DNA of 33,582 bases, taken from Alistipes sp. (GTDB taxonomy: Bacteria > Bacteroidota > Bacteroidia > Bacteroidales > Rikenellaceae). Position numbers and translations under genes: made by a program. Location of the stretch: positions 1 through 33,582 of the forward strand of contig JAFTNV010000023.1 of NCBI GenBank assembly GCA_017451685.1, written 5' to 3'. Under the pieces are notes generated by a model. That model searched no databases. It was not told where the DNA came from and saw only the letters and a list, made by a program, of their open reading frames with translations. Below, piece after piece: positions 12,706 to 33,582 of the stretch; the stretch's first letter is position 1; each line of letters begins with the position of its first letter.

Positions 12706-12736
12706 TTTAGCGTGATAAGCAATTTAGCGTGATAAG
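12704..12736 (+). repeat. 17-bp tandem duplication just after a stop codon
   Basis: AATTTAGCGTGATAAG occurs at 12704-12719 and again at 12721-12736, one base apart, overlapping the TAA stop of the PCMD gene. The second copy runs directly into palindromic repeat copy A. Copy C is preceded by the related GTGATAATGG. It may be a slippage product or a trace of how the repeat arrived. Confidence 0.7.
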
Positions 12737-12835
12737 GCAGCATCTACTGCCGCTAACAAAAAGTGCCGTCAATGGGCTGTACGTTTAAGTACTATCCCAT
12801 CGACGGCATTTTTGCCGAGCGTTGTATCTACTGCC
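12736..12835 (+). repeat. Palindromic dispersed repeat, copy A (probable bidirectional terminator)
   Basis: The core stem pairs 12764-12776 with 12796-12808, with a single A/C mismatch at 12771/12801. It is extended by AAAA (12759-12762) against TTTT (12810-12813) and capped by GTAC (12779-12782)/GTAC (12789-12792). The arms outside the stem, ATCTACTGCCGCTAAC on the left and GCCGAGCGTTGTATCT on the right, recur in the other copies. T-runs on both sides would allow termination in both directions. It follows the seven-gene operon. Confidence 0.8.
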
Positions 12836-12915
12836 TTCTGACGCTAATTTGGATTCTTGAGATAAAACATCATAGACGGCCGAGACCTCGTTGTTATCCC
12901 TGCCAAATTAATAAT

Positions 12916-12943
12916 TACTCACTACTCACTACTCATTACTCAT
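12916..12943 (+). repeat. Four tandem 7-bp repeats upstream of the HAD gene
   Basis: TACTCAC, TACTCAC, TACTCAT, TACTCAT occupy 12916-12943, ending 10 bases before the -7 promoter element. They occupy the place where the -33 element would be expected. Confidence 0.8.
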
Positions 12944-12953
12944 TGTTTTGTGC

Positions 12954-12961
12954 TATCTTTG
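12954..12961 (+). promoter_or_regulatory. -7 promoter element of the HAD gene
   Basis: TATCTTTG matches TAnnTTTG, but no TTG lies 19-21 bases upstream because the tandem 7-mers are there. The predicted start of transcription (about five bases after the element) coincides with the ATG at 12966, so the mRNA may have almost no leader. Confidence 0.55.
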
Positions 12962-12965
12962 TCGT

Positions 12966-13625
12966 ATGAAACCACGATTGATAATCTTCGACTTCGACGG
13001 CACGCTCTGCGATACGCGCCAGAATATCATCAAGGCATTCCGTGCGACGATGGATGCCCTCGGCCTGCCGTTAAGGAGCGAGGCGGCATGTGGCGCAACC
13101 ATAGGCCTCACGCTTAGGGACGGCTTCGCGGAGCTATACCCCGCGCTCAGCGATGCCGAAGTGGAGCATGCTGTCGCCACCTATCGCCGCATCTTTGCCG
13201 AGCACCGCGAGGAGTATATGCCCGCGCTGTTTGCGGGTGTTAGTGATGTGCTCGACAAGCTGCATAGCGATGGCTATACGCTTGCTATCGCTACCTCGCG
13301 CCTCACGGACTCGCTCATGCTCTTTATGCGCGAGCATAATATCGACTGCTACTTCACCTACGTCGTGGGCTCGGATAGTGTAGAGCACCATAAACCAGCG
13401 CCCGACCCCGCGAATAAGATTCTCGCGACGCTTGGTTTTAAGCCCTCTGAGGCCATTGTTGTTGGCGATATGCCGGTAGATGTGCTTATGGCTCATAACG
13501 CGGATATCAAGGCCGTGGGCGTAACATACGGCAATGCCACGCGCGCGGAGCTTATCGCTGCCGATGCCGACTACATCATTGACGACATCCGCGAGCTACT
13601 GCCCATTGTCGGGACTTTTTGTTAG
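12966..13625 (+). CDS. HAD-superfamily phosphatase, phosphoglycolate phosphatase-like
   Basis: A 219-residue cytoplasmic hydrolase of the haloacid dehalogenase superfamily, with the cap type of the beta-phosphoglucomutase / phosphoglycolate phosphatase group. Motif I is FDFDGTLCD (nucleophile D9, general acid D11), motif II is AIATSR (T110), the motif III lysine is K143 in HHKPAPDP, and motif IV is VVGDMPVDV (D168, D172). All catalytic residues are present. The start at 12966 is preferred over the upstream in-frame TTG at 12948 because the promoter lies between them. The last seven codons (P213-C219) and the stop are encoded by half copy D of the palindromic repeat, so the natural C-terminus may have been altered. 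The substrate is unknown. Confidence 0.85.
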   Translation: MKPRLIIFDFDGTLCDTRQNIIKAFRATMDALGLPLRSEAACGATIGLTLRDGFAELYPALSDAEVEHAVATYRRIFAEHREEYMPALFAGVSDVLDKLHSDGYTLAIATSRLTDSLMLFMREHNIDCYFTYVVGSDSVEHHKPAPDPANKILATLGFKPSEAIVVGDMPVDVLMAHNADIKAVGVTYGNATRAELIAADADYIIDDIRELLPIVGTFC

Positions 13626-13643
13626 GGGCAGTAGATGTTTGCC
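13602..13643 (-). repeat. Palindromic repeat half copy D, overlapping the HAD gene end
   Basis: These 42 bases match 13766-13807 of copy B at 40 of 42 positions. They correspond to one stem strand plus the outer arm; the other half is missing. The HAD stop codon (13623-13625) lies inside it. Orientation is the same as copy B. Confidence 0.85.
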
Positions 13644-13693
13644 AGATTCGCGAAACGAGCAATGGCTGTAATTTATTGTTAGAGTGGTACGAG

Positions 13694-13821
13694 GTTTCGC
13701 AAAATAAGGTTGCAGATACAACACTCGGCAAAAATCCCGACGATGGGTAGTACTTGAGCGTACAACCCATTGTCGGGATTTTTTGTTAGGGGCAGTAGAT
13801 GTCTGCCTTATTTTGCGAAAC
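13694..13821. repeat. 16-bp inverted repeat flanking copy B, one arm being a gene end
   Basis: GTTTCGCAAAATAAGG at 13694-13709 is an exact inverted copy of 13806-13821. The right arm is the last codons and the stop of the GGGtGRT gene. A degenerate third version (CGCGAAAC) follows half copy D near 13650. Confidence 0.85.
13711..13807 (-). repeat. Palindromic dispersed repeat, copy B (probable bidirectional terminator)
   Basis: Read on the minus strand, the order is ATCTACTGCCCCTAAC, AAAAAATCCCGAC, AATGGG, GTACGCTCAAGTAC, CCCATC, GTCGGGATTTTT, then GCCGAGTGTTGTATCTGC. The stem differs from copy A in sequence but stays paired, with the same A/C mismatch kept. It sits between the convergent HAD and GGGtGRT genes, where a two-way terminator is expected. 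Confidence 0.85.
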
Positions 13822-14809
13822 TCTGCTGGATAGCTACCGCAATAGCCACAGTCGCGCCCACCATAGGGTTGTTACCCATACCGAGGAAGCCCATCATCTC
13901 CACGTGTGCGGGAACTGACGATGAACCAGCGAACTGTGCGTCAGAGTGCATACGACCCATAGTGTCGGTCATACCGTATGATGCGGGGCCGGCAGCCATG
14001 TTGTCGGGGTGCAACGTACGGCCGGTACCACCACCCGAGGCTACCGAGAAGTACTTCTTGCCTGCCAACGTGCGCTCCTTCTTATACGTACCTGCTACGG
14101 GGTGCTGGAAGCGTGTGGGGTTTGTCGAGTTACCGGTGATAGATACATCAACATCCTCCTTCCACATGATAGCCACGCCCTCGCGTACATCGTCGGCGCC
14201 ATAGCAGCGTACCTTCGAGCGAAGACCGTCAGAGTAAGAGATGGTCTCTACCTCCTTAACCTCACCCGTGTAGTAGTCGAACTCGGTGCGTACGTATGTG
14301 AAGCCGTTGATGCGCGAGATAATCTTCGCAGCATCCTTGCCAAGGCCGTTGAGAATCACGCGCAAGGGGTTCTTACGCACGCGGTTAGCCATCTCGGCAA
14401 TCTTAATAGCGCCCTCAGCCGCAGCGAATGACTCGTGGCCGGCGAGGAAGGCGAAGCACTGTGTCTCCTCGCGGAGAAGGCGTGCTGCGAGGTTACCATG
14501 GCCGATACCTACCTTGCGGTCCTCGGCAACAGAGCCGTTGATGCAGAAGGCCTGAAGACCCTCACCGATAGCCTCGGCAGCATCAGCAGCATTCTTGCAA
14601 CCCTTCTTGATAGCGATAGCAGCACCTACGACGTAGGCCCACTTAGCGTTCTCGAAGCAGATGGGCTGAGTCTCCTCGCACATCTTATAGGGGTCGATGC
14701 CCTTCTCGTCGCAGATGGCCTTAGCCTCCTCGACTGACTTAATACCATATTGTGCAAGCACAGCGTTGATCTTATCGATTCTGCGCTCGTAGCTCTCAAA
14801 TAATGCCAT
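13808..14809 (-). CDS. GGGtGRT family protein
   Basis: A 333-residue protein without signal peptide, recognised as the GGGtGRT protein family by SVASGGGTGRTLHPDN (GGGTGRT at residues 259-265) and the small-residue C-terminus GMGNNPMVGATVAIAVAI. Cysteines are concentrated in the N-terminal 100 residues (AKAICDE, YKMCEETQPICFE, LQAFCING), plus later ones in QCFAF and RCYGADD. The family is found in anaerobes and has, to my knowledge, no established function. The glycine-rich motif suggests nucleotide or phosphate binding, which is inference. The gene has AGGAAA a few bases before its ATG and lies 45 bp after a NifU-like gene on the same strand, its usual partner. The operon runs toward repeat copy B. 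Confidence 0.8.
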   Translation of the reverse strand: MALFESYERRIDKINAVLAQYGIKSVEEAKAICDEKGIDPYKMCEETQPICFENAKWAYVVGAAIAIKKGCKNAADAAEAIGEGLQAFCINGSVAEDRKVGIGHGNLAARLLREETQCFAFLAGHESFAAAEGAIKIAEMANRVRKNPLRVILNGLGKDAAKIISRINGFTYVRTEFDYYTGEVKEVETISYSDGLRSKVRCYGADDVREGVAIMWKEDVDVSITGNSTNPTRFQHPVAGTYKKERTLAGKKYFSVASGGGTGRTLHPDNMAAGPASYGMTDTMGRMHSDAQFAGSSSVPAHVEMMGFLGMGNNPMVGATVAIAVAIQQSFAK

Positions 14810-14854
14810 AATTTTCCTAAAATTTAATGGTTAATACTCTATGAACGCCCTCGG

Positions 14855-15547
14855 TTACTCGTGACGAGGATCGATATACTTAACGGCATCCTTGAAGCGG
14901 CCGTATGAGCCCTTAGCCTTCTCCAATGCCTCTGCGGGCTCGATGCCCTTCTTGATGAAGTCCATCATCTTGCCGAGGTGCACGAACTCGTAGCCTATAA
15001 CCTCGTCGTTAGCATCGAGAGCCATGCGTGTGCAGTAACCCTCGGCCATCTCGAGGTAGCGCGTACCCTTGGCGTTGGTGCCGAACATTGTACCTACCTG
15101 TGAGCGGAGACCCTTGCCAAGATCCTCGAGCGATGCGCCGATAACAAGGCCACCCTCCGAGAAGGCTGACTGTGTACGGCCGTAGACAATCTGCTTGAAC
15201 AACTCGCGCATGGCGGTGTTGATAGCGTCGCATACGAGGTCGGTGTTGAGAGCCTCGAGGATGGTCTTGCCGGGGAGAATCTCCGAAGCCATCGCTGCCG
15301 AGTGTGTCATACCCGAGCAACCGATAGTCTCTACCAATGCCTCCTCGATGATACCGTCCTTAACATTGAGCGTAAGCTTACATGCGCCCTGCTGGGGAGC
15401 ACACCAGCCAATGCCGTGGGTAAGACCCGAGATATCCTTAATCTCCTTTGCGCGTACCCATTTGCCCTCCTCGGGGATAGGTGCAGACTCGTGGTTAGCA
15501 CCCTTCTTCACGCAGCACATCTGCTGCACTTCGTGTGAGTAAATCAT
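14855..15547 (-). CDS. NifU-like iron-sulfur cluster scaffold protein
   Basis: A 230-residue cytoplasmic protein. Residues about 43-120 match the NifU/IscU N-terminal scaffold fold: GIGWCAPQQGACKLTLNVKD, then IEEALVETIGCSGMTHSAA, then LPGKTILEAL and VCDAINTAM. The three cluster-ligand cysteine positions of IscU are plausibly C49 or C56, C77 and C106. Two extra cysteines (C11, C12) sit at the N-terminus. The IscU-type LPPVK chaperone motif is absent. The C-terminal 100 residues are not part of the classic fold. It is the first gene of a two-gene operon with the GGGtGRT protein. Together they probably assemble or transfer an Fe-S cluster for an unidentified target. No cysteine desulfurase gene is present in the window. 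Confidence 0.8.
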   Translation of the reverse strand: MIYSHEVQQMCCVKKGANHESAPIPEEGKWVRAKEIKDISGLTHGIGWCAPQQGACKLTLNVKDGIIEEALVETIGCSGMTHSAAMASEILPGKTILEALNTDLVCDAINTAMRELFKQIVYGRTQSAFSEGGLVIGASLEDLGKGLRSQVGTMFGTNAKGTRYLEMAEGYCTRMALDANDEVIGYEFVHLGKMMDFIKKGIEPAEALEKAKGSYGRFKDAVKYIDPRHE

Positions 15548-15610
15548 AGTCTTTGTTACTTTTTAGTTATTGTGTATTAGTCTTATTTTTGCCTTTAGCA
15601 CAAATCGTGA

Positions 15611-15641
15611 CAAAGGTACGAAACTAATTCGGATTTAGCAA
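15611..15641 (-). promoter_or_regulatory. Promoter of the NifU-like/GGGtGRT operon
   Basis: On the minus strand, TTG (15639-15641) is followed after exactly 20 bases by TACCTTTG (15611-15618), a full consensus match. The start is predicted near 15606, giving a leader of about 60 nt. Confidence 0.8.
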
Positions 15642-15647
15642 ATTTTT

Positions 15648-15702
15648 CAAAAAATTAAAAAACAAGCAGAGGGCAACCGATGATGTGTCCGGTTGCCCTC
15701 TG
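15648..15702 (-). terminator. Intrinsic terminator of the Oar-like receptor gene
   Basis: CAGAGGGCAACCG (15667-15679) and CGGTTGCCCTCTG (15690-15702) form a perfect 13-bp stem with a ten-base loop. On the minus strand it is followed by GCTTGTTTTTTAATTTTTT. It lies 25 bp after the receptor stop and just upstream of the NifU-like promoter. Confidence 0.92.
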
Positions 15703-15727
15703 TGTACGTTGCCGCGTTTGTTGCCAA

Positions 15728-18700
15728 CTAAAATGCCACCTTAAGGCCGAGCTGCATGTGCCAGCGCGAGGCGATGTCGTTGGTGGTGTACTCCGCGCCA
15801 TTAAACTTGTATACAGGGCGGTAGCCTCCGTCAACTTCCTTGAGCTCGGTGATTGTCACGGGCGACAGCGCCCAGTTCGATGTGCGATGCACAAGACCCC
15901 ACGAGCGCGATATGAGGTTCGAGAGGTTGAGTATGTCGAGCGACAGCTCTATATGTCGGCTGCTATGCTTCGAGAAGTAGAACGACTGCGCCACGTGTAG
16001 GTCTAAGCGGTGCACGAAGGGCAGCGAGTGCGAGTTACGCTCGGCAAATGCGCCACGATGTGTGCTGAGGTACTTGTCCGCCTTGATGTAGTCGTTGAAT
16101 GCGGCTGCCGATGTGTCGTCGGCCCATAGCATCGTTGCCATCTCAGCCTCCGTGGGGATGTAAATCAGCGAGTTGCCGCGATACGTGTCGCCATTGGCAT
16201 CCACCTTGCCGCGGGCATACGTGAGCGAGTAGTGCTCGCCCGAGTAGCCGTTGTATAGTAGCATTACGTTTGTGCCAAAGAGACCATAGCGACGCGAATA
16301 TGAGAGTGATGCCACGACCTTATGCGGGAACTCGTATATCGAGCTGCTGAGTGCCGGAGAGTTGCTATCTACGGCATACGTGCGTCCCCAGTTTGTCGAT
16401 GACTGTGCCGAGAAGCCATCGTTTATGCTGCGTGACTCGGAGTAGGTATATGCTGCCATCGCCTTAAGGCCCGTGAGTGCTCCTAAAAAACTATATTCCA
16501 CGCGTGCCGTAGCGCTCCATGAGTAGCCCTTTGCGGTGTTGCTGAGACGATATACTGCCGAGTAATCCTTCGTCGTTGAGTTGTAGTATGTGGCCGAGGC
16601 ATTGCTCCCTTCACCACCTACATATAGCCTCTCGCCGTGATCCTCGGCAACGAGATTTTCGATATATATGTTGTTTATGCCCTTGGTGTAGTCGGCATCA
16701 AGACCGATAACCAACGGGTAGAGGTCGAACTTGGCACCCATGGCCGCGCGGAATACCTGTGGGTAGCGGAAGTCGGTCGTTACCAAGTCGATAGATGGGT
16801 TACTCTTGATGCCTACGCTCTCGGGATTTAGGCTAAACGATGGTGTCTCCTCGGGGTTTGTTACGGTAACGCCCACCGAGCGCATGCCGGTATTCTGGTA
16901 GCAGTTCGAGAGCCACACGAAGGGTATGCTTCCGGTGTAGATGCCGGCGCTACCGCGTAGCGTGATGATGCCACGCTGCCACTCGATGCCTACGCGCGGT
17001 GAGAGGAGTATCTGCGCACGAGGAACGTCACCTGTGAGCGTGCCAAATTTGGCGAAATAACCACTATTGAACTCGTCGTTTGCTACGGGCGTATCGAAGA
17101 GCACGGGGATATCCATGCGTAGGCCGTATGTCAGGCGTAGCTCGCGGTTTAGAGCCACCTCGTCCTGTGCGTAGAGGGCGAAGCGTCCCGTGGTCATCGG
17201 TGGGTTCTTCTCGCCCGTGGCGAAGTAGCCGTAGGCATACTGCGTAGCGCGGTCGGCGAGGAAGTCGTCCATCGAGGCATAGGTGTACGTGCCGCGGGCG
17301 TTGGCCATGTATAGGTTGTCGGCACGGTATATCTCGTTCGATGTGCCCACGGTGATGTTATGCTTGCCGCGGTTGATGGTCACATCGTCGCCAAAGATAA
17401 AGACATCCTGATAGAGCATATTACGCCCCGAGTAGGGGTTTGTACCTATCGTTGCGCTTCCCGTGCCACGCTCACCAAGGCCGTTGATGATTACGGCAGG
17501 GAGGCTCTCCTCCGTGGTGCGACCATCCTGAAGGCGTGTGTAACCTACACGCAACGAGTTGGTTATATGGTCATTATCTCGGTATGGCCACGATGAGTTG
17601 AGCTCCGCAACGACTGAGTGTGTGCGGTTGATGTTGGTATACTCCGCGCCCGTGAAGTAGAAGGACTGAGCGGAGTTAGATACCGCATCGGCATCGGCAT
17701 GGAGCATATTGTAGCGCAACGAGAGGTGGTGGTTGTTACTGATGTTCCAATCGATGCGCGCCACGGCCGAGCCGGTAAGCTCCAATACATCGTTCTCGCC
17801 ATAGCCGCCGCCATCATAGCCCGTAAGCTCCTCATAGCGCTTAGATATGGTCTTGGCCTCCTCGAGTGTGAGGGCCGACACGCCACTACCCGGGTAGTTG
17901 GTCGAGGGGGTCATATTGCGGTTGAACTCGCCCGCAGCAAAGAAGAAGAGCTTATCCTTGATGATGGGGCCACCGAGGGTAACACCCACGATATTAGTCA
18001 TCTGCGTAGATAGAGGCTTGCGCTCGGCAATATCCTTGCCCGGCGTTGTGCCCCAGAACTCCTGATTGTTGAAGTAGGTGTATGCCGAGCCGCGAAACTC
18101 GTTGCTGCCGGAGCGTGTGATGGCATTTATGGCACCTCCCGTGAAGCCGCTCTCGCGCACATCGACCGTAGATGTAGAGAGCGATACGGCCTCAAGAGCA
18201 TCTATCGGAATAGGGTTGGCGCGTGTGAGCGAGCCGGTCATGCCCGTCGTGCCCAAGCCGTAGATGTCGGCCGACGACGTGCCGTCGATGGTGAAGGCGT
18301 TGTAGCGTGGGCTCTGACCCGCCAGAACGATGCCACCCGACGAGGGGCTCACGGCCGACGACATAAGGTGTGTGAGGTCAAATATTGCGCGGTCGATAGA
18401 GGGTATCGTCTCAATCTCCACGCGGCTGAACAAATTACCGCCTGCGGGGTGCTGCTGGTCGGCAACGACGACGACATCCTCCACCTCGATGGGCGACTCC
18501 TCGAGTGTCACATCGTAGGTGTGCTCGTTGCTAAGTGCAAGTTGCACATCCTTGATAACTAAGGTTTTATAGCCGATAAAATGAAATGTTATCTCGTATG
18601 GGCCACCCACGCGCATGCCACTAATGGAGTAGTAGCCTTCGCTGTTAGCCGTAGTGCCGTAATGTGTACCCGAGGGGGTGTGCAGTGCTACGACGGTAGC

Positions 18701-18817
18701 ACCAGGAAGAGGGTTGTCGTTGGCGGTCACATAACCACGAATAGTTGCAGTAGTAACCTGTGCTGTCGACACTGCCACGACAAGGAGCAGTGCGACGGTC
18801 AAAAGCAGTCGCTTCAT
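15728..18817 (-). CDS. Oar-like TonB-dependent receptor
   Basis: Starting at the ATG at 18815-18817, the product has 1029 residues, begins MKRLLLTVALLL and is cleaved near STAQ. An upstream in-frame ATG at 18838 would add seven residues before the signal peptide and is less likely. Residues about 20-105 form a carboxypeptidase regulatory-like domain (TIRGYVTANDNPLPGATVV, NSEGYYSISGMRVGGPYEI). A plug domain follows, with GGAINAITRSGSNEFRGSAY typical of Oar-type receptors and GGPIIKDKLFFFAAGEFNR. The rest is the barrel, ending in LGLKVAF with the C-terminal phenylalanine. Such receptors use TonB-ExbBD energy to import or display large ligands, and some Oar proteins take part in protein secretion or adhesion. 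It is monocistronic, divergent from the susC-like gene, and has no SusD partner beside it. Confidence 0.88.
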   Translation of the reverse strand: MKRLLLTVALLLVVAVSTAQVTTATIRGYVTANDNPLPGATVVALHTPSGTHYGTTANSEGYYSISGMRVGGPYEITFHFIGYKTLVIKDVQLALSNEHTYDVTLEESPIEVEDVVVVADQQHPAGGNLFSRVEIETIPSIDRAIFDLTHLMSSAVSPSSGGIVLAGQSPRYNAFTIDGTSSADIYGLGTTGMTGSLTRANPIPIDALEAVSLSTSTVDVRESGFTGGAINAITRSGSNEFRGSAYTYFNNQEFWGTTPGKDIAERKPLSTQMTNIVGVTLGGPIIKDKLFFFAAGEFNRNMTPSTNYPGSGVSALTLEEAKTISKRYEELTGYDGGGYGENDVLELTGSAVARIDWNISNNHHLSLRYNMLHADADAVSNSAQSFYFTGAEYTNINRTHSVVAELNSSWPYRDNDHITNSLRVGYTRLQDGRTTEESLPAVIINGLGERGTGSATIGTNPYSGRNMLYQDVFIFGDDVTINRGKHNITVGTSNEIYRADNLYMANARGTYTYASMDDFLADRATQYAYGYFATGEKNPPMTTGRFALYAQDEVALNRELRLTYGLRMDIPVLFDTPVANDEFNSGYFAKFGTLTGDVPRAQILLSPRVGIEWQRGIITLRGSAGIYTGSIPFVWLSNCYQNTGMRSVGVTVTNPEETPSFSLNPESVGIKSNPSIDLVTTDFRYPQVFRAAMGAKFDLYPLVIGLDADYTKGINNIYIENLVAEDHGERLYVGGEGSNASATYYNSTTKDYSAVYRLSNTAKGYSWSATARVEYSFLGALTGLKAMAAYTYSESRSINDGFSAQSSTNWGRTYAVDSNSPALSSSIYEFPHKVVASLSYSRRYGLFGTNVMLLYNGYSGEHYSLTYARGKVDANGDTYRGNSLIYIPTEAEMATMLWADDTSAAAFNDYIKADKYLSTHRGAFAERNSHSLPFVHRLDLHVAQSFYFSKHSSRHIELSLDILNLSNLISRSWGLVHRTSNWALSPVTITELKEVDGGYRPVYKFNGAEYTTNDIASRWHMQLGLKVAF

Positions 18818-18869
18818 TCTAAAGGGATTTAGGGACACTATTTATGTGTCAGGTTAATGAAAATATTGC

Positions 18870-18898
18870 CAATTTGCAGCACCAATACCTGCAAATTG
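18870..18898 (-). promoter_or_regulatory. Inverted repeat at the predicted 5' end of the Oar-like mRNA
   Basis: CAATTTGCAG (18870-18879) and CTGCAAATTG (18889-18898) are perfect 10-bp inverted repeats separated by nine bases. The predicted transcription start is about 18899, so the transcript would begin almost exactly with this stem-loop. It could equally be an operator overlapping +1. Confidence 0.6.
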
Positions 18899-18903
18899 CG
18901 TCG

Positions 18904-18933
18904 CAAATATATATAAAATTTTTTATGCAACAA
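18904..18933 (-). promoter_or_regulatory. Promoter of the Oar-like receptor gene
   Basis: On the minus strand, TTG (18931-18933, within TTTG) is followed after 19 bases by TATATTTG (18904-18911), a consensus match. The leader is about 80 nt. Confidence 0.75.
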
Positions 18934-19010
18934 ATATTTTTATTTCATATTTTTTTATTCTCGCCACATGCCCTTTTTTGACAATCTTCTTAATGCCGCA
19001 GAATTGAAAT

Positions 19011-19027
19011 TTATGCATACAGCATAA
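19011..19027. promoter_or_regulatory. Possible operator between divergent promoters
   Basis: TTATGC (19011-19016) and GCATAA (19022-19027) form a perfect inverted repeat with a five-base centre, about midway between the two divergent promoters. It could bind a dimeric regulator; no regulator gene lies in the window. The rest of 18934-19181 shows nothing else I can name. Confidence 0.3.
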
Positions 19028-19181
19028 TTATGTGCAAATGGGCGACGTCGCGGCTTGTTTGTTTATTAAATCTGCCATTTGGTTGATGTCCCCAAGATGA
19101 AACAAACGGGCTTATCTCCGCAAGATACATGCCTTAATCGCCTTTTTGGGGGTGATTATCGAAAAAAAAGATAACATATTT

Positions 19182-19211
19182 TTGCTATTTCAATTAATTG
19201 GTTTATCTTTG
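19182..19211 (+). promoter_or_regulatory. Promoter of the SusC/SusD/protease operon
   Basis: TTG (19182-19184, within TTTTTG) is followed after 19 bases by TATCTTTG (19204-19211), a full consensus match. Transcription is predicted to start near 19216. Confidence 0.82.
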
Positions 19212-19216
19212 TGCAT

Positions 19217-19561
19217 TAACTTTACGTATAAAGTGCGGGCTACTACGGATTGAGATGTAAACTATAAGTTTAAGAGTGACGAAAAAGGGTGTTAAAGAGG
19301 TGGCCCGGCAGTGAGAAAAGGGTTGATTGATGGATGGGGGATTGATAGCGAGAAACAAACTGATAGAGTAGTGAAATAACAGAACGGATAAAACGAAAAG
19401 GGCCTCAATGAGGGGGTAACAGAGAAGAGACTTAAAACGAAATAAACGCTTAAAACGAAAAACAATTGGAGAAGAGCCCCGGCGATGGGGCGAATGGAGA
19501 AGGAACCTAAAACGAAAGGAACAGAAAAAACTTTATAACTTTACAAAATTTATTAAAACTA
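19217..19561 (+). promoter_or_regulatory. Long susC leader with 5' palindrome and four TAAAACGAAA motifs
   Basis: About 345 nt separate the promoter from the susC-like ATG. ACTTTA/TAAAGT (19219-19234, four-base loop) would form a stem at the mRNA 5' end. The motif TAAAACGAAA occurs exactly four times: 19389-19398, 19433-19442, 19451-19460 and 19508-19517. Short GC hairpins lie between them: CCTC/GAGG (19403-19413) and GCCCC/GGGGC (19476-19491). The segment is strongly purine-rich. Long leaders controlled by small RNAs or RNA-binding proteins are known for Bacteroides susC genes; here this is inference. Confidence 0.6.
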
Positions 19562-22825: not shown

Positions 22826-22845
22826 CATAAAATACGATTAAGACT

Positions 22846-24564: not shown

Positions 24565-24602
24565 TGAGTATGCTATTTGTTAATAGAAAATAAGATACTA
24601 CT

Positions 24603-27281: not shown

Positions 27282-27293
27282 TCATAGACATTT

Positions 27294-27350
27294 CGCCTAC
27301 GGGTGGTGTCCGCGAGGTGCCACCCACGGCGGAAGCTCTCCCACGGAGAG
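27294..27350 (+). promoter_or_regulatory. Two intergenic hairpins before the first S8 protease gene
   Basis: The first has CGCC (27294-27297) and GGGTGG (27301-27306) pairing with CCACCC (27320-27325) and GGCG (27328-27331). The second has CTCTCC (27336-27341), a three-base loop, and GGAGAG (27345-27350). No T-run follows, so they are not terminators. They may separate the stability or translation of the upstream susCD genes from the protease part of the transcript. Confidence 0.55.
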
Positions 27351-27392
27351 GTCTATCGAAGTACTAACAAACAAAGAAAAACAATTAAACTT

Positions 27393-29477
27393 ATGAATAA
27401 GGGTAAGATTTTATTGATAGGCTTGGCAGGAATGCTCGCAGTGGCTTGTGCTACCGACACGGTAGATCAGCCTCAGGCTACACCCGAGGCTTCTGTTGCC
27501 AACAAATTAGTGAATACCTCTTCAGATGCTGTTCAGGGCAAGCTTCTCTTCTACGTCGAGAAGGGTAGTGTTGCACAGCTCGAGGCTGCTGCCTCAGCAA
27601 CGGCCACAGGCCTCAGCGCACTTGATACTGCCGCTGCGGAGCTTGGCGCTACGAAGGTGGAGCAGGTATTTAACATGAAGGTTAATGCTGAGCTTAAGCG
27701 TGAGCTCGGTATGGATCGTTGGTTCTCAATCGAGTTCTCGAAGGATATGGATCTCGATGCTGCCGCTAACATCTTGGCTACGGTAGATAAGGTTCAGCGC
27801 GTGGAGTTCTCGACGATTGTTAAGGCTCCTAATGTTGACGAGCCCGAGGTTGTTGAGCTCGCAGTTGCTGGCGCGACACGTGCCGGTGAGTTTCCCAACG
27901 ACCCCTATTTCGGTGCACAGTGGGGCTTGCTCAACGAGGGTAACCGCAATGTCGCTGAGGGCAAGGAGCCTACATACGCCGACTATACTGGCGAGGGCTT
28001 CGTTTCTCCCTATGTTCGCGTAGGTGCCGACATCAATGTTGTTCCCGCATGGGAGCTTATCGCATCGAAGGGTAGCACTGATATCATCGTTGCTGTTATC
28101 GACAATGGCGTTGACTTCAACCACGAGGACTTGAAGGATAACATGCTCGTTAACGAGAAGGAGTTGAACGGTGTTGAGGGCGTCGATGACGACGAGAACG
28201 GCTATGTAGACGACATTTACGGCTACAACTTCTACACTAACTCTCCCGTTATCACCTTCGGTGAGGGTCACGGTACTCACGTGGCAGGTATCCTTGGTGC
28301 TGTTAGCAACAATGGTAAGGGTATTGCCGGTGTTGCCGGTGGTAATGGCAATGGTGGTGTTCGCATCCTCAGCTGCCAGATGCTTGCTGACGAGGGTAAG
28401 GCCTTCAACGAGCAGGGCTACGACTCTGCTGCTAAGGCTTTGGAGTATGCTGCTGACCGTGGCGCCGTTATCGCCAACAACTCATGGGGTAACGATCCCG
28501 GTATCTTGTTGAACGATAACTCGTACAAGGTTAACATGTCGCTTCGTCACGTTGCCTTCGAGTACTTCATGAAGAAGAAGAATCACCCCGCATTGGATGG
28601 TGGTATCCTCATCTTCGCTGCAGGTAACGAGAGCGCAGCTATGGCAGGCTATCCCGGTGCTTACAACGAGTATGTGTCTGTAACGGCTACAGGCCCTGAT
28701 GGTCTTCCCGCATACTATACCAACTATGGCCCCGGCTGTAACATCGCAGCTCCTGGTGGTGAGTTCTTCGTGAACCAGTTTGGTCACGCTATGCGTGCTG
28801 GTTGTATCATCTCTACACTCCCCGACAACAAGTATGGTTACATGCAGGGTACCTCAATGGCTACTCCTATGGTTTCGGGTGTTGCAGCGTTGATGCTCTC
28901 GTATGCTTCGGAGATTGGCAAGTGCTACTCACTCGAGCAGTTCAAGACTATGCTTCTCACGTCGGTGTACACCATGGATCGCTTCATGTATACGAAGGAC
29001 GAGGATGGCAACGACGTACGTTTGGAGAAGAAGCCGACGATTAGTGGCGAGCTTACGTTGGAGACCTATGAGGGTAAGATGGGTACAGGTTCTATCGACG
29101 CTTACCGTGCGATGATGGCTATCCGTGGCATCAGCTGCGTGCCTATCGTTGCTGGCGAGGAGTGTGTCGTAGACCTCAAGTCGCTTATGGCTGATGGTAA
29201 CATCCTTCCCAAGACTATGGAGGATATCATCATCCCCAACGATGTTCGCGAGCGCCTTGGTATCACGAATGCTACAATCTTCGGTGATGACCTTATCATC
29301 ATCTGCGAGAATGCCGGTAGCGGTGTTATCAAGATCGTGATGGTTGCCGGTGGTGACTCTGTTGGCGGTGGTAACTCTATGGGCGGTATGCGCATCGAGA
29401 AGGAGATTGCTCTTGTAGTTAGCAGCAACTATACAGCTAACAACGGTGTTGTTAACAACCCCGGTGGTTGGTTGTAA
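27393..29477 (+). CDS. S8 (subtilisin-family) serine protease lipoprotein
   Basis: Starting at ATG 27393 (not the upstream in-frame start at 27303, which would put 30 polar residues before the signal peptide), the product has 694 residues with lipobox AVAC. Residues about 45-145 resemble an S8 inhibitor-type propeptide (GKLLFYVEKGSVAQLEAA, VFNMKVNAELKREL). The catalytic domain follows, with D237 (AVIDNGVD), H293 (GHGTHVAG), oxyanion N412 (FAAGNES) and S488 (GTSMATP), so it should be active. The C-terminal 150 residues start GTGSIDAYRAMMAIRG and form an Ig-like region ending in NPGGWL. It probably sits on the outer membrane and cuts extracellular protein for the SusCD importer. A close paralogue lies at 30809-32836. 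The next gene is its lipocalin-like partner. Confidence 0.93.
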   Translation: MNKGKILLIGLAGMLAVACATDTVDQPQATPEASVANKLVNTSSDAVQGKLLFYVEKGSVAQLEAAASATATGLSALDTAAAELGATKVEQVFNMKVNAELKRELGMDRWFSIEFSKDMDLDAAANILATVDKVQRVEFSTIVKAPNVDEPEVVELAVAGATRAGEFPNDPYFGAQWGLLNEGNRNVAEGKEPTYADYTGEGFVSPYVRVGADINVVPAWELIASKGSTDIIVAVIDNGVDFNHEDLKDNMLVNEKELNGVEGVDDDENGYVDDIYGYNFYTNSPVITFGEGHGTHVAGILGAVSNNGKGIAGVAGGNGNGGVRILSCQMLADEGKAFNEQGYDSAAKALEYAADRGAVIANNSWGNDPGILLNDNSYKVNMSLRHVAFEYFMKKKNHPALDGGILIFAAGNESAAMAGYPGAYNEYVSVTATGPDGLPAYYTNYGPGCNIAAPGGEFFVNQFGHAMRAGCIISTLPDNKYGYMQGTSMATPMVSGVAALMLSYASEIGKCYSLEQFKTMLLTSVYTMDRFMYTKDEDGNDVRLEKKPTISGELTLETYEGKMGTGSIDAYRAMMAIRGISCVPIVAGEECVVDLKSLMADGNILPKTMEDIIIPNDVRERLGITNATIFGDDLIIICENAGSGVIKIVMVAGGDSVGGGNSMGGMRIEKEIALVVSSNYTANNGVVNNPGGWL

Positions 29478-29521
29478 GAGAGTGACTTACGTAATACTTA
29501 TCTCTAAAAAGTAAAGAAATT

Positions 29522-30574
29522 ATGAAGAATCTTAAGATATGGTCACTCGCTGTAGCAATGCTTATGGTTGTGACCGGATGTGGCGAGAACACCGGCACAG
29601 GTGATACGTTCAAGCCTGGCGATGTGTCTAAGATCGTGAACGAGTGGCAGCTCACCGAGTGGGGTGGCGCCGAGGCTCGCTTCGATGTATATGTTAAATT
29701 CGATGGTGCCAACATGGAGCTCTACCAGCGCTTTGGTTCTGAGTATGAGAAGTATGAGGGTACATACACGCTCGAGGGCAACACGCTCTACGGTGCCTAT
29801 ACCGATGGTAAGGGCTTTGGCCCCTACGAGGCTGAGGTTTCGGCTGATGGTAAGACCATGCGCTTGACGAAGGATGACGTCATGGGCGTCTATACAGCAA
29901 CTACTATCCCTGCATGGGTTAAGGAGCAGGCTGTCGTAGGTGGCGCTACTGAGGATGACGAGAAGGATCCTGAGGGTGATAACAACGGCAACGAAGGTAC
30001 TGGCAACGAGGGTACTGGCAACGAGGGTACTGGCAACGAGGGTACCGGCAATGAGGGTACTGGCAACGAGGGTACCGGCAATGAGGGTACTGGCAACGAG
30101 GGTACCGGCAACGAGGGTACTGGCAATGAGGGTACTGGCAACGAGGGTACCGGCAACGAGGGTACTGGCAATGAGGGTACTGGCAACGAGGGTACCGGCA
30201 ACGAGGGTACTGGCAACGAGGGTACTGGCAACGAGGGTACTGGCAACGAGGGTACTGGCAACGAGGGTACTGGCAACGAGGGTGGCAACACCGATGATAA
30301 CAAGGATCCCGAGGGTGGTAACACCGGCAATGAGGGTACTGGCAACGAGGGTACCGGCAATGAAGGTGCTGGTAACGAGGGTACTGGTAACGAGGGTACT
30401 GGTAACGAGGGTACTGGTAACGAGGGCACTGGCACTGATAATGGCTCAACTACCGACCCTAATGCTCCCACAACTCCCGAGGATACCACAACTCCCGAGG
30501 ATACCACAACTCCCGAGGAGAATCCTACTCCCGAGACAAATGCTTGCGGCGTGGTAGGTGTTCCCTTCTTGTAA
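29522..30574 (+). CDS. Lipocalin-like lipoprotein with GNEGT repeat tail
   Basis: A 350-residue lipoprotein (lipobox VVTGC, C20). Residues about 36-138 form a small beta domain of the lipocalin-like kind (IVNEWQLTEWGG, FDVYVKFDGANMELYQ, YEGTYTLEGNTLYGAY, VYTATTIPAWVKEQA). From residue 156 to about 303 the protein is almost entirely GNEGT repeats (19 units, one GNEGG, a short DDNKDPEGGNT break, seven more). It ends with TTPED repeats and the peptide CGVVGVPFL. The same signal-peptide sequence (IKIWSL) and lipocalin-like domain recur in the gene at 32895, also directly after an S8 protease. The tail is probably an extended flexible spacer; its length may vary between strains. A terminator follows. 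Confidence 0.78.
   Translation: MKNLKIWSLAVAMLMVVTGCGENTGTGDTFKPGDVSKIVNEWQLTEWGGAEARFDVYVKFDGANMELYQRFGSEYEKYEGTYTLEGNTLYGAYTDGKGFGPYEAEVSADGKTMRLTKDDVMGVYTATTIPAWVKEQAVVGGATEDDEKDPEGDNNGNEGTGNEGTGNEGTGNEGTGNEGTGNEGTGNEGTGNEGTGNEGTGNEGTGNEGTGNEGTGNEGTGNEGTGNEGTGNEGTGNEGTGNEGTGNEGTGNEGGNTDDNKDPEGGNTGNEGTGNEGTGNEGAGNEGTGNEGTGNEGTGNEGTGTDNGSTTDPNAPTTPEDTTTPEDTTTPEENPTPETNACGVVGVPFL
29987..30286 (+). repeat. 15-bp minisatellite, block 1 (20 units)
   Basis: Twenty consecutive 15-base units of the form GGCAACGAGGGTACT. Nineteen encode GNEGT and the last GNEGG. Variation is mostly synonymous: AAC/AAT, GAG/GAA, ACT/ACC. ACC and ACT units alternate in places, suggesting 30-base higher-order duplication. 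Confidence 0.95.
30326..30430 (+). repeat. 15-bp minisatellite, block 2 (7 units)
   Basis: Seven further units of the same 15-mer, after a non-repeat insert encoding GNTDDNKDPEGGNT. The third unit encodes GNEGA. The last four begin GGTAAC rather than GGCAAC, so they expanded as a separate group. Confidence 0.93.
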
Positions 30575-30602
30575 TGGAGCAAGCAGACGAAAGTCTGTAA
30601 CG

Positions 30603-30637
30603 AAATGTCATCGGCTTCGGCCGGTGACATTTTTTTG
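30603..30637 (+). terminator. Intrinsic terminator with TTCG tetraloop
   Basis: A 13-bp stem (30603-30615 with 30620-30632, one G/T pair) is closed by the very stable C(TTCG)G loop and runs into TTTTTTTG. It ends the SusCD-protease transcript. Confidence 0.93.
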
Positions 30638-30722
30638 TTTGGTACCGATATAACTCCACCTTCGCCTCTCTGTTACAGTTGTTTTATAAATTTTTTATTA
30701 TCTACAATCTGGCGGAAAATAG

Positions 30723-30752
30723 TTGTATATACAGAAAAAATTAGTATCTTCG
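30723..30752 (+). promoter_or_regulatory. Promoter of the second protease/lipocalin-like pair
   Basis: TTG (30723-30725) is followed after 19 bases by TATCTTCG (30745-30752), one base from the TAnnTTTG consensus. The second S8 gene is therefore an independent transcript from the SusCD operon. Confidence 0.7.
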
Positions 30753-30780
30753 CACCTTGAGAGAATAACCAAAATCCTTA

Positions 30781-30787
30781 AAGGAGG
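30781..30787 (+). promoter_or_regulatory. Perfect Shine-Dalgarno sequence at an unusual distance
   Basis: AAGGAGG lies 21 bases before the ATG at 30809, too far for a normal ribosome binding site. It is part of the palindrome TCCTTAAAGGA (30775-30785). No other in-frame start lies closer to it. Confidence 0.4.
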
Positions 30788-30808
30788 AACTTAAAACTTT
30801 TATAGACT

Positions 30809-32836
30809 ATGAATAAGTACAGATTTTTGCTTATTTCTTTGGCTGCGATTCTCATGGCTTCGTGTGTTGAGGATAACCTCTCGTCACCCGAGGTTAACAA
30901 CGAGGATATTGCTGCTGCCAAGAAGATTATCAACACAGCGGCAAATGCTGATAGCGGTACGCTTATCTTCTACGTCACCGAGGAGTGTGCCTCACGCATC
31001 GAGAATGCGGAGGTCACACGTAGCGGCATGACCGAACTCGACCTCCTTGCTATGGAGATTGAGGCCTCGGCCATTAAGCCCGTCTTCAACCTTAAGGTTA
31101 ATGGCGATGAGAAGCGTGCGCGAGGTATGCACCGTTGGTATACCGTGGATTTTCCCTCGACGGTAGCTTTGGAGGATGCGGCCATGAAGCTTGCAAAGAT
31201 TGACTACGTAGAGACCGTGCAGTATGCCGGTAAGATGCAGCGCCCCGAGGCGAAGCCCATCATGGTTGACCCCGCAACCATCTCTTCAACACGTGCCGAC
31301 GAGTATCCCTTCAACGACCCGGCTATGCCTATGCAGTGGCACTACATCAACAAGGGTCGTCAGTCGTTGTACCCTGGCTCTATTGAGGGCGAGGATATCA
31401 ACGTGGAGCCCGCCTGGAAGCTCACGACGGGTCGCCCCGAGGTTGTCGTTGCCATCGTTGACGAGGGCGTATGCTACAATCACGTGGATTTAGAGGCTAA
31501 CATGCACGTAAACGAGGCTGAGCTCAATGGCGAGGATAATGTCGATGACGACAATAATGGCTATGTAGACGACGTCTACGGCTATAACTTCGGCCTTGGT
31601 GGTCGCGTGTCGTACATGCGCGACGGCGACCAGGGTCATGGTACTCACGTGGCAGGTACTATTGCTGCGGTAAACAACAATGGTGTAGGTGTTGCCGGTG
31701 TTGCCGGTGGCTCGGGTAACGGTGATGGCGTACGTATCTTCTCGGCTCAGATATTCTCGGGCAAGGAGGATCATGCTAACTATGCCCAGACGGCTGCCGC
31801 TATTGAGTACTCTGCCGACCGTGGTGCTTGTATCTTGCAGTGCTCGTGGGGTTTTGAGCCTAATGCTATCCAGAATGACAACGAGTTCCAGAATGACCAT
31901 AGATACTCTGTTGAGTATGAGGCTATCGAGTACTTCATCAGCAAGAAGAACTGCGCAGCGTTGGATGGCGGTCTTGTAATCTTTGCTGCCGGCAACGAGG
32001 GTCAGCCTATTGCGGGTTATCCCGGTGCCTACAGAAACTATCTTGCCGTTACGGCCTTCGCTCCGGATGGCCTCCCCGCATACTACACGTGCTACGATAA
32101 GGGATGTAACATCTCGGCACCCGGTGGTGAGTATTTCCTCTATAACAATAGCATACAGTCGACGGGTTGCGTTTACTCTACCGTTGCCGGCCCCAACGTT
32201 AAGCCTGCGAACGAGGGCTACGCATATATGCAGGGTACCTCTATGGCATGTCCCCACGTGTCGGGCGTTGCTGCTCTCGGCCTATCGTATGCTCTCGACC
32301 TTGGCAAGACATTCACTGTTGACCAGTTCAAGGCGCTCCTTACTACATCCGTGAATGCCTTCCCCGACAGTGCCTTCCAGGGCTATAAGGATCATGCTGA
32401 GGGTGGCTCGATGAACCTCGCAAGCTATCGTAATAAGATGGGTACGGGTAAGATTGATGCTTATCGTCTGCTTATGGCTATCCGTGGCGTTAGCTGCGTG
32501 CCCGTGTCGACAAAGGAGACAAACTATATCGACTTTAGTAAGTTCGTGGGTAAGGATGGCCTCGAGATGAAGGTTGCTGATTATGATATCTCGGAGGATA
32601 CCATCGAGGCTCTTGGCATCGTGTTCGACCAGTTTACAAGTGGTAAGGTTGTGCTCCAGTGCAGCAAAGCCGGTGTTGGCACCATCAAGGTGGGCATGAT
32701 TGCCGGTGGCACAATGGAGGGTAGTGGTATTATCACTGCCGGCATGCGCATCGAGAGAGAGTTCGCCCTTATCGCGCGCCCCGATGTGGAGACTGACGAG
32801 AATGGTAATCCCATCAAGTCGGATGGTTGGTTGTAG
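30809..32836 (+). CDS. S8 (subtilisin-family) serine protease lipoprotein, paralogue
   Basis: A 675-residue lipoprotein (lipobox LMASC, C19) with the same plan as the protease at 27393. The propeptide-like N-terminus is GTLIFYVTEECASRIENA and VFNLKVNGDEKRARGM. The catalytic residues are D218 (AIVDEGVC), H277 (GHGTHVAG), oxyanion N396 (FAAGNEG) and S478 (GTSMACP), all present. The C-terminal region starts GTGKIDAYRLLMAIRGVSC and ends in KSDGWL. Differences from the paralogue include extra cysteines near the active site (DEGVC, RGACILQCSWG, YYTCYDKGC), which could form disulfides or alter specificity. It has its own promoter and is followed 58 bp later by a lipocalin-like gene, repeating the arrangement upstream. 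Confidence 0.93.
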   Translation: MNKYRFLLISLAAILMASCVEDNLSSPEVNNEDIAAAKKIINTAANADSGTLIFYVTEECASRIENAEVTRSGMTELDLLAMEIEASAIKPVFNLKVNGDEKRARGMHRWYTVDFPSTVALEDAAMKLAKIDYVETVQYAGKMQRPEAKPIMVDPATISSTRADEYPFNDPAMPMQWHYINKGRQSLYPGSIEGEDINVEPAWKLTTGRPEVVVAIVDEGVCYNHVDLEANMHVNEAELNGEDNVDDDNNGYVDDVYGYNFGLGGRVSYMRDGDQGHGTHVAGTIAAVNNNGVGVAGVAGGSGNGDGVRIFSAQIFSGKEDHANYAQTAAAIEYSADRGACILQCSWGFEPNAIQNDNEFQNDHRYSVEYEAIEYFISKKNCAALDGGLVIFAAGNEGQPIAGYPGAYRNYLAVTAFAPDGLPAYYTCYDKGCNISAPGGEYFLYNNSIQSTGCVYSTVAGPNVKPANEGYAYMQGTSMACPHVSGVAALGLSYALDLGKTFTVDQFKALLTTSVNAFPDSAFQGYKDHAEGGSMNLASYRNKMGTGKIDAYRLLMAIRGVSCVPVSTKETNYIDFSKFVGKDGLEMKVADYDISEDTIEALGIVFDQFTSGKVVLQCSKAGVGTIKVGMIAGGTMEGSGIITAGMRIEREFALIARPDVETDENGNPIKSDGWL

Positions 32837-32894
32837 TAGGTGCAATTAGATAGTAGAACAAGAATATTTCCTTAATTCAATAGATATTCAGACT

Positions 32895-33422
32895 ATGAAG
32901 AGTATTAAGATATGGTCGCTTATCGCGATGTTGTTTATCGGCATGGTAGGCTGCGAGCCCATAGATGATAACAAGAATCCTAATGATAACCCCAGCGATA
33001 ACCCGAACGATAACCCCAATGATAACCCTAACGATAACCCCGGAGGTGTTAATAACGACGGTGTCATTGGCGAGTGGGTGCTGGTGTCGTGGAGCGAGGA
33101 TACACCTCCGTTCCATGTATACGTGGACTTCAACGATGATAACACGTTTGAGATGTACGAGCAGGTGTACTCACTTATGTATGAGTATGTTGCTGGTGTA
33201 TATCACATTGATGGCAACACCCTCTCGGGCAACTATCTCCATGGCGAGGATTGGAAGAGCAGCTATACCGTAGCCTTCTCGGAGAATGCCGAGGGCGTAT
33301 CTACGATGGAGCTTGTCGATGCCTCGGGCATCAAGAGCATCTACGAGGCTACGACCATCCCCGAGGATGTAAAGACCGAGGCTAAGGAGACACGTGCCAC
33401 TGGTGCGGAGCACTTCTTGTAG
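32895..33422 (+). CDS. Lipocalin-like lipoprotein, paralogue with N-terminal linker
   Basis: A 175-residue lipoprotein (lipobox GMVGC, C20) related to the gene at 29522: the signal peptide MKSIKIWSL, the beta domain (VIGEWVLVSW, FHVYVDFNDDNTFEMYEQ, AGVYHIDGNTLSGNYL) and the IYEATTIPEDVK segment all correspond. Here the low-complexity stretch (NPNDNPSDNPNDN, residues about 27-51) lies between the lipid anchor and the domain, whereas in the relative it lies after the domain. It ends in AEHFL against GVPFL in the relative. It directly follows the second S8 protease, so the pair is probably co-transcribed. Possible roles are protease inhibitor, maturation factor or substrate binder. None is shown by sequence. 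Confidence 0.72.
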   Translation: MKSIKIWSLIAMLFIGMVGCEPIDDNKNPNDNPSDNPNDNPNDNPNDNPGGVNNDGVIGEWVLVSWSEDTPPFHVYVDFNDDNTFEMYEQVYSLMYEYVAGVYHIDGNTLSGNYLHGEDWKSSYTVAFSENAEGVSTMELVDASGIKSIYEATTIPEDVKTEAKETRATGAEHFL

Positions 33423-33438
33423 TCGGGGATTGCAGATA

Positions 33439-33540
33439 ATGAAGAGAGTGAATAAAAAGTGTATTTTGTCGTTCTTTGTTGTGATAATGGCGCATCTACT
33501 TCCGCTAACGAATTATCTCGTCAATGGGCAGTACGCCTAA
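33439..33540 (+). CDS. Possible 33-residue small hydrophobic peptide
   Basis: An open frame starts with a basic segment (MKRVNKKC), then about 15 hydrophobic residues (ILSFFVVIMAHLLPL) and a short polar end, as in a signal peptide or small membrane protein. The second half is encoded by palindromic repeat copy C and ends at a TAA in the repeat's loop. It may be a true small protein, the remnant of a truncated lipoprotein, or chance. Confidence 0.2.
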   Translation: MKRVNKKCILSFFVVIMAHLLPLTNYLVNGQYA

Positions 33541-33582
33541 GTACAGCCCATCGCCTCGAAATTCGCCGAGCGTTGTATCTGC
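33488..33582 (+). repeat. Palindromic dispersed repeat, copy C (runs to the window edge)
   Basis: It has the left arm GCATCTACTTCCGCTAAC, the core GTCAATGGGC, the apical GTACGCCTAAGTAC, GCCCATCGCC, and the right arm GCCGAGCGTTGTATCTGC. ATGGGC (33524-33529) pairs with GCCCAT (33546-33551), and CGAATT (33509-33514) with AATTCG (33560-33565). The middle of the stem is less well paired than in copies A and B and there is no long T-run, so termination should be weaker. It follows the second lipocalin-like gene. Confidence 0.8.

Follow-up and report, generated by a model that had tools for sequence, protein, structure and literature searches.

A dispersed family of palindromic hairpins at gene ends in Alistipes, probably REPIN-like and mobile

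The stretch of DNA analysed here (the window) is a contig of 33,582 nt, JAFTNV010000023.1, from an assembly of Alistipes sp. (GCA_017451685.1). It is the entire contig C15 of the source genome (G000), which consists of 43 contigs and is 80.6% complete. The window contains three copies, A, B, and C, of a palindromic repeat, each of them downstream of a gene on the same strand. A and B are separated by a gene of the HAD_2 family, and C is cut by the contig end (Table 1).

Table 1. Positions of the repeat copies and the adjacent genes in the window (CM, covariance model)
Feature	Positions	Strand	Evidence or remark
Gene upstream of A, PF13201 (PCMD)	11095..12705	+	Stop codon TAA, 12703-12705
Direct duplicate of the left arm of A (TAATTTAGCGTGATAAG)	12703..12719	+	Includes the TAA stop of the upstream gene
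Copy A, complete	12720..12851	+	CM match 145.5 bits, E 1.7e-30; sequence
Left arm of A	12720-12735		
Interior of A	12736-12835		
Right arm of A	12836-12851		
HAD_2 family gene between A and B	12948..13625	+	First ATG 12966
Half copy (left half)	13597..13637	-	BLAST match to positions 6-46 of A
Copy B, complete	13692..13823	-	CM match 138.1 bits
Gene upstream of B, PF14057 (GGGtGRT protein)	13808..14809	-	
Gene upstream of C, Lipocalin_4	32895..33422	+	Match just under the Pfam cut-off
Copy C, cut by contig end	33472..33582	+	CM match 87.6 bits (33489-33582); arm start from alignment

The alignment of copies shows that the unit is a near-perfect palindrome of about 131 nt with sharp ends and the architecture (T)AATTT-NNNN-TGATAAGG ... 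CCTTCTGA-NNNN-AAATT(A). The coordinates of the first-pass annotation spanned only the interior; BLAST with A revealed an additional outer stem flanking every copy. The motifs named in that annotation are present in all three copies, with one-base differences between them. The left arm is ATCTACTGCCGCTAAC in A and differs by one base in B (CCCC for CCGC) and in C (ACTTCC), the right arm is GCCGAGCGTTGTATCT in A and C and GCCGAGTG.. in B, and the core CAATGGG...CCCATCG and the apex GTACGnnnAAGTAC are shared. The lower stem had been proposed to differ between copies and yet to stay paired, as CCGTC/GACGG in A and CCGAC/GTCGG in B, and the outer stem of C was given as CGAATT/AATTCG; these pairs are present, but pairing holds less well for C, the middle stem of which is poorly paired. 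The left arm of A is present as a tandem duplicate (12703-12735), i.e. TAATTTAGCGTGATAAG followed by CAATTTAGCGTGATAAG, and is single in a related genome, G097.

A BLAST search with A yielded 55 matches in the source genome. The covariance model R1 was built on copies of the A/B/C type, and other subfamilies score lower with it. R1 gave 112 matches at E values up to 0.01. Of these, 33 were the same palindromes matched on the other strand and one, C37:41994, duplicates C23:42135; the remainder correspond to 78 places, among which the contig duplicate C37:54036 and the overlapping match C31:49539 are still counted. Parts of C23 and C37 are almost identical and carry the same elements in corresponding places, which may mean that the assembly contains a duplicate or a strain variant. 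The earlier proposal of a mobile palindromic repeat is supported in that the family is dispersed and behaves as such a repeat. Neither outcome named beforehand as refuting that proposal was obtained, as further copies are many and covariation (see below) is clear. Several interior subfamilies, assigned by reading, share the one architecture, i.e. the A/B/C type and types containing CATCTGCGGCACATCCC, GCATTAGCGACGCTTCAATC, TCATTCTCGGCCTCTCAATC or GGCACCAAGCTCATTG. Twelve of the 78 places lie directly behind another copy, head to tail, forming arrays of two or three.

The family is restricted in its distribution. R1 matches with E values up to 1e-4 were found in 68 of the 121 genus genomes, including the source genome, and in none of 197 other genomes of the order; for the genus and the order, only the best 28 and 17 candidates per genome, respectively, were scored, with stricter filters. 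The exact arm pattern occurs in at least 118 stretches of the named genome collection, and all of the 80 matches listed belong either to Alistipes sp. records with names referring to ruminant gut samples or to Rikenellaceae records (SIG isolates). The arm pattern has no exact match in viral contigs, and A has no match in phages or plasmids; a phage or plasmid origin was therefore rejected. No Rfam family exceeded its gathering score in the window, and the two matches obtained at E values up to 5 were both below it. In the literature searched, on Alistipes palindromes or repeats and on related hairpin systems, no account of this hairpin family was found.

The copies are positioned with respect to stop codons. 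In 36 of the 78 places, the element starts with the T of a stop codon that ends a long open reading frame (ORF) on the same strand, and in another 15 the stop lies within -6 to +13 nt of the element start. Eight places are 17 to 95 nt past the stop, including A, which has the duplicated arm, and the copies of C type (the stop upstream of C itself is about 50 nt away), 15 are 120-300 nt past it, of which 12 are array followers, and four have no such ORF. The exact pattern was found in 84 copies, of which 77 were counted after setting aside 7 edge copies. In 59 of these 77, an ORF of 100 codons or more is closed in frame by the TAA of the element; the corresponding figure for the other TAATTT sites of these loci is 19 of 313 (Fisher 7e-37). 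Three of the remaining copies have an ORF of 60-99 codons and 15 have neither, and in several of these 15 the gene's own TAG or TAA directly precedes the element.

For comparison with the neighbouring genes, a small purpose-written caller based on codon usage was applied. Of the 77 source-genome places for which an upstream gene was called, 75 share its strand, and the downstream genes of these 75 are convergent in 35 cases, in tandem in 31, and not called in 9. Stop codons followed by an element are TAA, TAG, and TGA in 61, 5, and 1 cases (n=67), and those of other genes in 115, 59, and 7 cases (n=181; Fisher 8e-6). The excess of TAA indicates that the element often supplies this stop codon. 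In a related genome, G056, which is 98% complete and consists of about 10 contigs, genes and GC skew were sampled in 20 stretches. A same-strand gene of at least 80 codons ends at the left end of 10 of 19 elements, array followers included, and an opposite-strand ORF of at least 80 codons ends at the right end of 1 of the 19.

At B, the arm next to the gene (13808-13823) is contained in the 3′-terminal part of the upstream gene, the TAA stop of which it includes. The gene product ends in QQSFAK before the stop, and its G097 counterpart in QQAMN. An origin of the arms by outward mirroring of the flanking gene was considered for B and for C13:20515, where the arm is coding sequence, and was found not to be general. 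The palindromes stop 2-3 nt outside TTT/AAA (runs of at least 4 occur in 2 of 290, compared with about 3% of re-paired flanks). The gene end at B in G097 is unlike the arm, so that replacement fits better than mirroring. The half copy at 13597-13637 has become part of the HAD-family gene, for which it provides the final residues and the stop; the C-terminus is VGTFC here and VEQL in G097.

The folding of the copies was compared with that of shuffled sequences. A and B fold far better than their shuffles (none of 200 reaches either), and C folds less strongly (z -2.5, reached by 1 of 200). In an alignment of 29 copies, which includes A and B and excludes the truncated C, 93.3% of 1042 cells pair. 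The covariation expected from the three initial copies was recovered in this alignment: two-sided changes numbered 103 versus a shuffle mean of 29.3 (reached by none of 500 shuffles, a test that kinship among the copies inflates). Nineteen pairs showed a two-sided change versus 11.1 in shuffles, and sliding the alignment by 1-3 columns left at most 20 two-sided cells. One-sided changes that leave a standard pair, such as G.U, account for few cells on the gene-sense strand (10 of 1042).

Template switching has been inferred to be able to homogenise the arms of palindromes and to create compensatory changes (PMC8794818). Compensatory change alone is therefore weaker evidence for selection on a folded strand than the first-pass annotation had claimed, and in gene-end hairpins it need not mean selection on the mRNA. 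At the site C24:1693, the G097 counterpart is a collapsed near-perfect palindrome, the left arm of which looks copied from the right one.

The part of this claim that stands is selection on one folded strand. The gene-strand stems have conserved A.C and T.C oppositions, which read G.U and G.A on the opposite strand. The A.C opposition within the stem of A, B, and C had been described as a retained mismatch; it is indeed present in all three, but it is a G.U or G.T pair on the opposite strand. We compared 292 distinct elements out of 338 loci by aligning their halves with G.U and A.C scored alike. On the sense strand, 1299 A.C oppositions were found versus 316 G.U, and A.C exceeds G.U in 266 of the 292 elements and in 46 of 58 interior clusters. 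The opposite strand has the better predicted RNA fold in 143 of 152 distinct elements, with mean values of -68.1 versus -56.1 kcal/mol. Eight of nine representatives that were drawn form a single long hairpin on the opposite strand, and one (L029) is branched. A cloverleaf as the general form was rejected. Left and right side hairpins are possible in a few copies (L029; by eye also L019, L021, and L027), L029 has them on both strands, and the other drawn representatives form the long opposite-strand hairpin. DNA energy parameters gave the same strand asymmetry, in weaker form, for A and B, the two copies tried, and thus the asymmetry does not separate RNA from single-stranded DNA. The strand kept fully foldable is the one opposite to the mRNA of the neighbouring gene.

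The orientation of the copies was analysed in G056, in which 122 R1 matches correspond to 92 places after leaving out 30 other-strand matches. The 92 places form 69 arrays, and 62 of these are on the majority strand of their contig, versus 43.7 expected at random (none of 20000 simulations reaches 62). On the six contigs sampled for genes, 57 of 64 arrays, but only 157 of 295 genes, are on the majority strand (Fisher 4e-8). For example, all 11 arrays of contig C13 of this genome are on the minus strand, while the sampled genes are divided into 37 plus and 28 minus, and all 9 arrays of its contig C6 are on the minus strand, with 25 genes on each. Orientation in G056 is thus coherent along contigs beyond the strand of the genes. 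The majority strand is the G-rich strand, by GC skew of the whole stretch, in 18 of the 20 sampled stretches. Should the G-rich strand be the leading one, the strand with the stronger fold would be the template of leading-strand synthesis.

Near-identical interiors occur at unrelated genes, in part with other arms. Among the 292 elements, 352 non-orthologous pairs have an interior identity of at least 0.93, and the arm is the same in 171 of them; C3:27016 and C17:14532, e.g., have identical interiors with the arms GTTG and TCGAT. Conversely, 89 pairs at orthologous sites, which are non-independent and have flank identities of 74-95%, have interior identities of <75% in 57 cases, 75-85% in 14, and at least 85% in 18. 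The mean interior identity of random element pairs is 0.67.

Single sites were compared with the related genome G097 by reading; its homologue of the gene upstream of A shares 430 of 499 aligned residues. Of the 52 stop-anchored sites in the source genome, 29 (one of them a contig duplicate) have a counterpart in the fetched G097 loci, which had been selected for bearing elements. At 21 of these 29, the G097 counterpart has another interior, in some cases cut short or with a larger repeat. For 20 of the other 23 sites a G097 match was found and read (15 and 5). Among these are elements that are complete but belong to another type (e.g. C23:42135), half elements (C43:8270 and C13:42269), other repeats inserted within the arms (C6, C1:30846, and C3:27016), and empty sites, e.g. 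C30:3724, with TAG for TAA and an ordinary terminator. Copies thus decay through halving and collapse. In the 30 loci read for the gene upstream of A, none of 29 homologues has an element at its stop, including those that are 64-76% identical.

Taken together, we consider it rather probable that A, B, and C are REPIN-like, non-coding, non-autonomous mobile hairpins of Alistipes-type gut bacteria, which form a gene-end structure besides. The position at the stop codon, the coherent orientation, and the exchange of interiors are new relative to the first-pass annotation. The mover, the link to replication, and any role in termination are what we infer from this pattern. The mobile form is probably a folded single strand, or a nascent strand that switches template between palindromes, at the replication fork. 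Copies would survive mainly behind genes that are co-directional with replication, where the strand with the strongest fold templates the leading strand. A settled hairpin would take over the 3′ end of the gene, including the stop codon and probably also the terminator, and this gene-end function would be a by-product or a benefit. Orientation would reflect the survival of the direction that keeps the stronger hairpin off the exposed template. Template switching between palindromes could perform the exchange without an enzyme (PMC8794818), but by itself it leaves the choice of stop codons unexplained. A more specific version is possible, and we advance it tentatively: single-stranded DNA hairpins would be addressed to the stop codons of genes in replication direction, carry their own stop codon, and exchange their interiors there, with a mover outside the Y1 family or with enzyme-free template switching at the fork. 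If so, such hairpins would steadily rewrite gene ends, and sometimes C-termini, throughout the genus.

The family resembles REP elements (REP-BIMEs) and REPINs, which are REP doublets folding into a hairpin, in several respects. Both are high-copy intergenic palindromes with a predicted single-stranded DNA or RNA fold and clustering, and both show compensatory changes, placement at ORF 3′ ends, and termini that can give a stop codon (PMC3116915, PMC3733652). REPINs are described as hairpins with compensatory changes (PMC3116915), and REPs of two species as located near the 3′ ends of ORFs, in many cases no more than 20 bp away, with GTAG ends that often provide a TAG stop (PMC3733652). The Alistipes family works like these elements and yet differs in two defining traits, the end tag and the RAYT. 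Its unit has 131 nt, and the GTAG/CGTC tag is absent from its ends, which are TAATTT/AAATTA-like in the alignment, with GTAG inside some interiors. The RAYT model NF047646 has no match over its cut-off in the 121 genus genomes. Further differences are the near-fixed orientation to the upstream gene, the contig-wide coherence, and the exchange of interiors at matching gene ends. Single-stranded DNA elements derived from IS200/IS605 have similar secondary structures, and their orientation follows replication (PMC5371812); the copies in G056 are coherent along contigs, and this may likewise be replication direction, judging by GC skew. These elements use the lagging-template strand (PMC5371812), whereas the polarity of the Alistipes family to the lagging-strand template appears reversed, and no Y1 transposase was found in the source genome, which is 80.6% complete.

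Several observations weigh against the reading that we favour. No mobilising enzyme was found in searches for Y1/RAYT proteins and the integron integrase, which did not extend to other transposase families. The opposite polarity of IS200/IS605 elements (PMC5371812) suggests that orientation may reflect survival and not insertion. Replication direction was taken from GC skew as a proxy in 20 sampled stretches of one genome, and within these stretches the skew of the intergenic DNA varies in sign. The more fragmented source genome is less coherent, with 24 of 28 arrays on the majority strand (contigs with at least three arrays, P 0.009), and its contigs C15, C23, and C41 are mixed in orientation. 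The mismatch bias is reversed, with G.U larger, in 15 of the 292 elements and 11 of the 58 clusters. The arms are only weakly tied to the locus, being equal in 21 of the 57 swapped pairs versus 23% of random pairs. The interior type is retained at 5 of the 29 sites compared with G097, including A; one counterpart is empty, and two consist of a remnant or of a copy within another repeat. An appearance of exchange could also arise if tandem arrays lost different members. Finally, neither a target-site duplication nor a clean pair of empty and filled sites was resolved, owing to the high divergence of the intergenic DNA.

The most serious alternative, which we nevertheless regard as unlikely, is that the family is an immobile RNA module of gene ends, i.e. 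a terminator or 3′ stabiliser that is under selection, spreads by recombination, and replaces the ordinary terminator. The gene-sense orientation at 3′ ends (75 of 77) is compatible with this, and, like an intrinsic terminator, the element is a hairpin after a stop codon, and in 171 of the 292 copies the apex is followed by four or more consecutive T (in 151 it is preceded by four or more A). Terminator-like hairpins are found within 200 nt of the stop in 21 of the 29 element-free homologues of the gene upstream of A, and our purpose-written finder detected none between A and the HAD gene. However, 121 of the 292 copies lack a T run of 4, and a terminator scanner found no terminator-like site in 12600-14000, i.e. 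neither in A nor in B; the purpose-written finder gave one such site in B, on the plus strand only. In addition, the better fold is that of the strand opposite to the mRNA, and the long two-layer palindromes, their modular exchange, the head-to-tail arrays of two or three, and the coherence in G056 beyond the gene strand are unlike an intrinsic terminator.

The fold asymmetry could also be explained by antisense structured RNAs that run in the direction of the adjacent gene's 3′ end and fold into a hairpin of 130 nt, the G.U pairs of which keep the DNA off a perfect palindrome. The G.U pairs in place of A.C are on the appropriate strand, and each subfamily that was drawn has a long antisense hairpin, one with side hairpins. 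Just outside A, a promoter-like match on the minus strand is directed into the element, but one match versus 1.7 expected in the region is at chance level, in a scan that does not cover Bacteroidota promoters. As 31 of 66 downstream genes are not convergent, the DNA parameters reproduce the asymmetry for A and B, and the window contains no Rfam family, we regard this explanation as improbable.

A further candidate is the attC site of integrons, an imperfect palindrome sited after a stop codon. Sites of this kind, used by an unrecognised integrase, would share with our family the place behind the stop and the foldable strand opposite to the gene. The arrangement to replication is also similar, because the attC bottom strand is on the leading-strand template in 25 of 30 sedentary integrons (PMC5371416). 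In contrast to integrons, the family consists of dispersed and tandem copies, and no cassette array was seen. The genes need not move with the site, since G017 and G022 have the gene upstream of A followed by the same HAD gene without an element. The integron integrase (TIGR02249) is rejected at the curated cut-off (0 of 121 genomes); sub-threshold matches occur in 121 of 121 genomes as well as in 14 of 14 control genomes and therefore carry no signal. We thus give this candidate very little credence.

Least of all do we credit ordinary REPINs moved by a RAYT/Y1 transposase, to which the hairpin dyads, high copy number, gene-end placement, and stop-codon supply would point as REP traits (PMC3733652, PMC3116915), and which is largely refuted for the sampled genus, because PF01797 (Y1 TnpA) is found in 1 of 121 genomes (G091, neither the source genome nor G056), no RAYT exceeds the cut-off, and the end tag is missing. 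REP-type palindromes have been explained via RAYT, and an equally successful family without a RAYT over the cut-off in the genus sample suggests that another mover, or none, may suffice. For the mobile hairpins that we favour, one element joins a stop codon, a strand-specific fold, and probably the direction of the fork, with dozens of natural replicates, so that what keeps palindromes alive in bacterial genomes becomes directly testable.

Some copies are associated with other repeats. C-type copies (window 33440-33582; L020, L024, L025, L028, and L030) are inside a larger repeat that starts with GAGAGTGAATAAAAAG and the far end of which, seen in L020, is CTTTTTATTCACTCTC. The window ends in copy C because several contigs of the assembly stop inside this larger GAGAGTGAATAAAAAG repeat. 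At G000:C31:49425-49642 (L112), an element of the CATCTGCGG type is nested between two remnants of one A-type element. A second hairpin-like repeat, GGGGATGAC..CTTTTTAGTCATCCCC, and its variants are present at the same gene ends in G097 (L350, L360, L364, L370, and L373), and repeats ended by AGGCTGAATAAAAAG or AGAGTGAATAAAAAG are also found at those gene ends, sometimes within the arms of the family.

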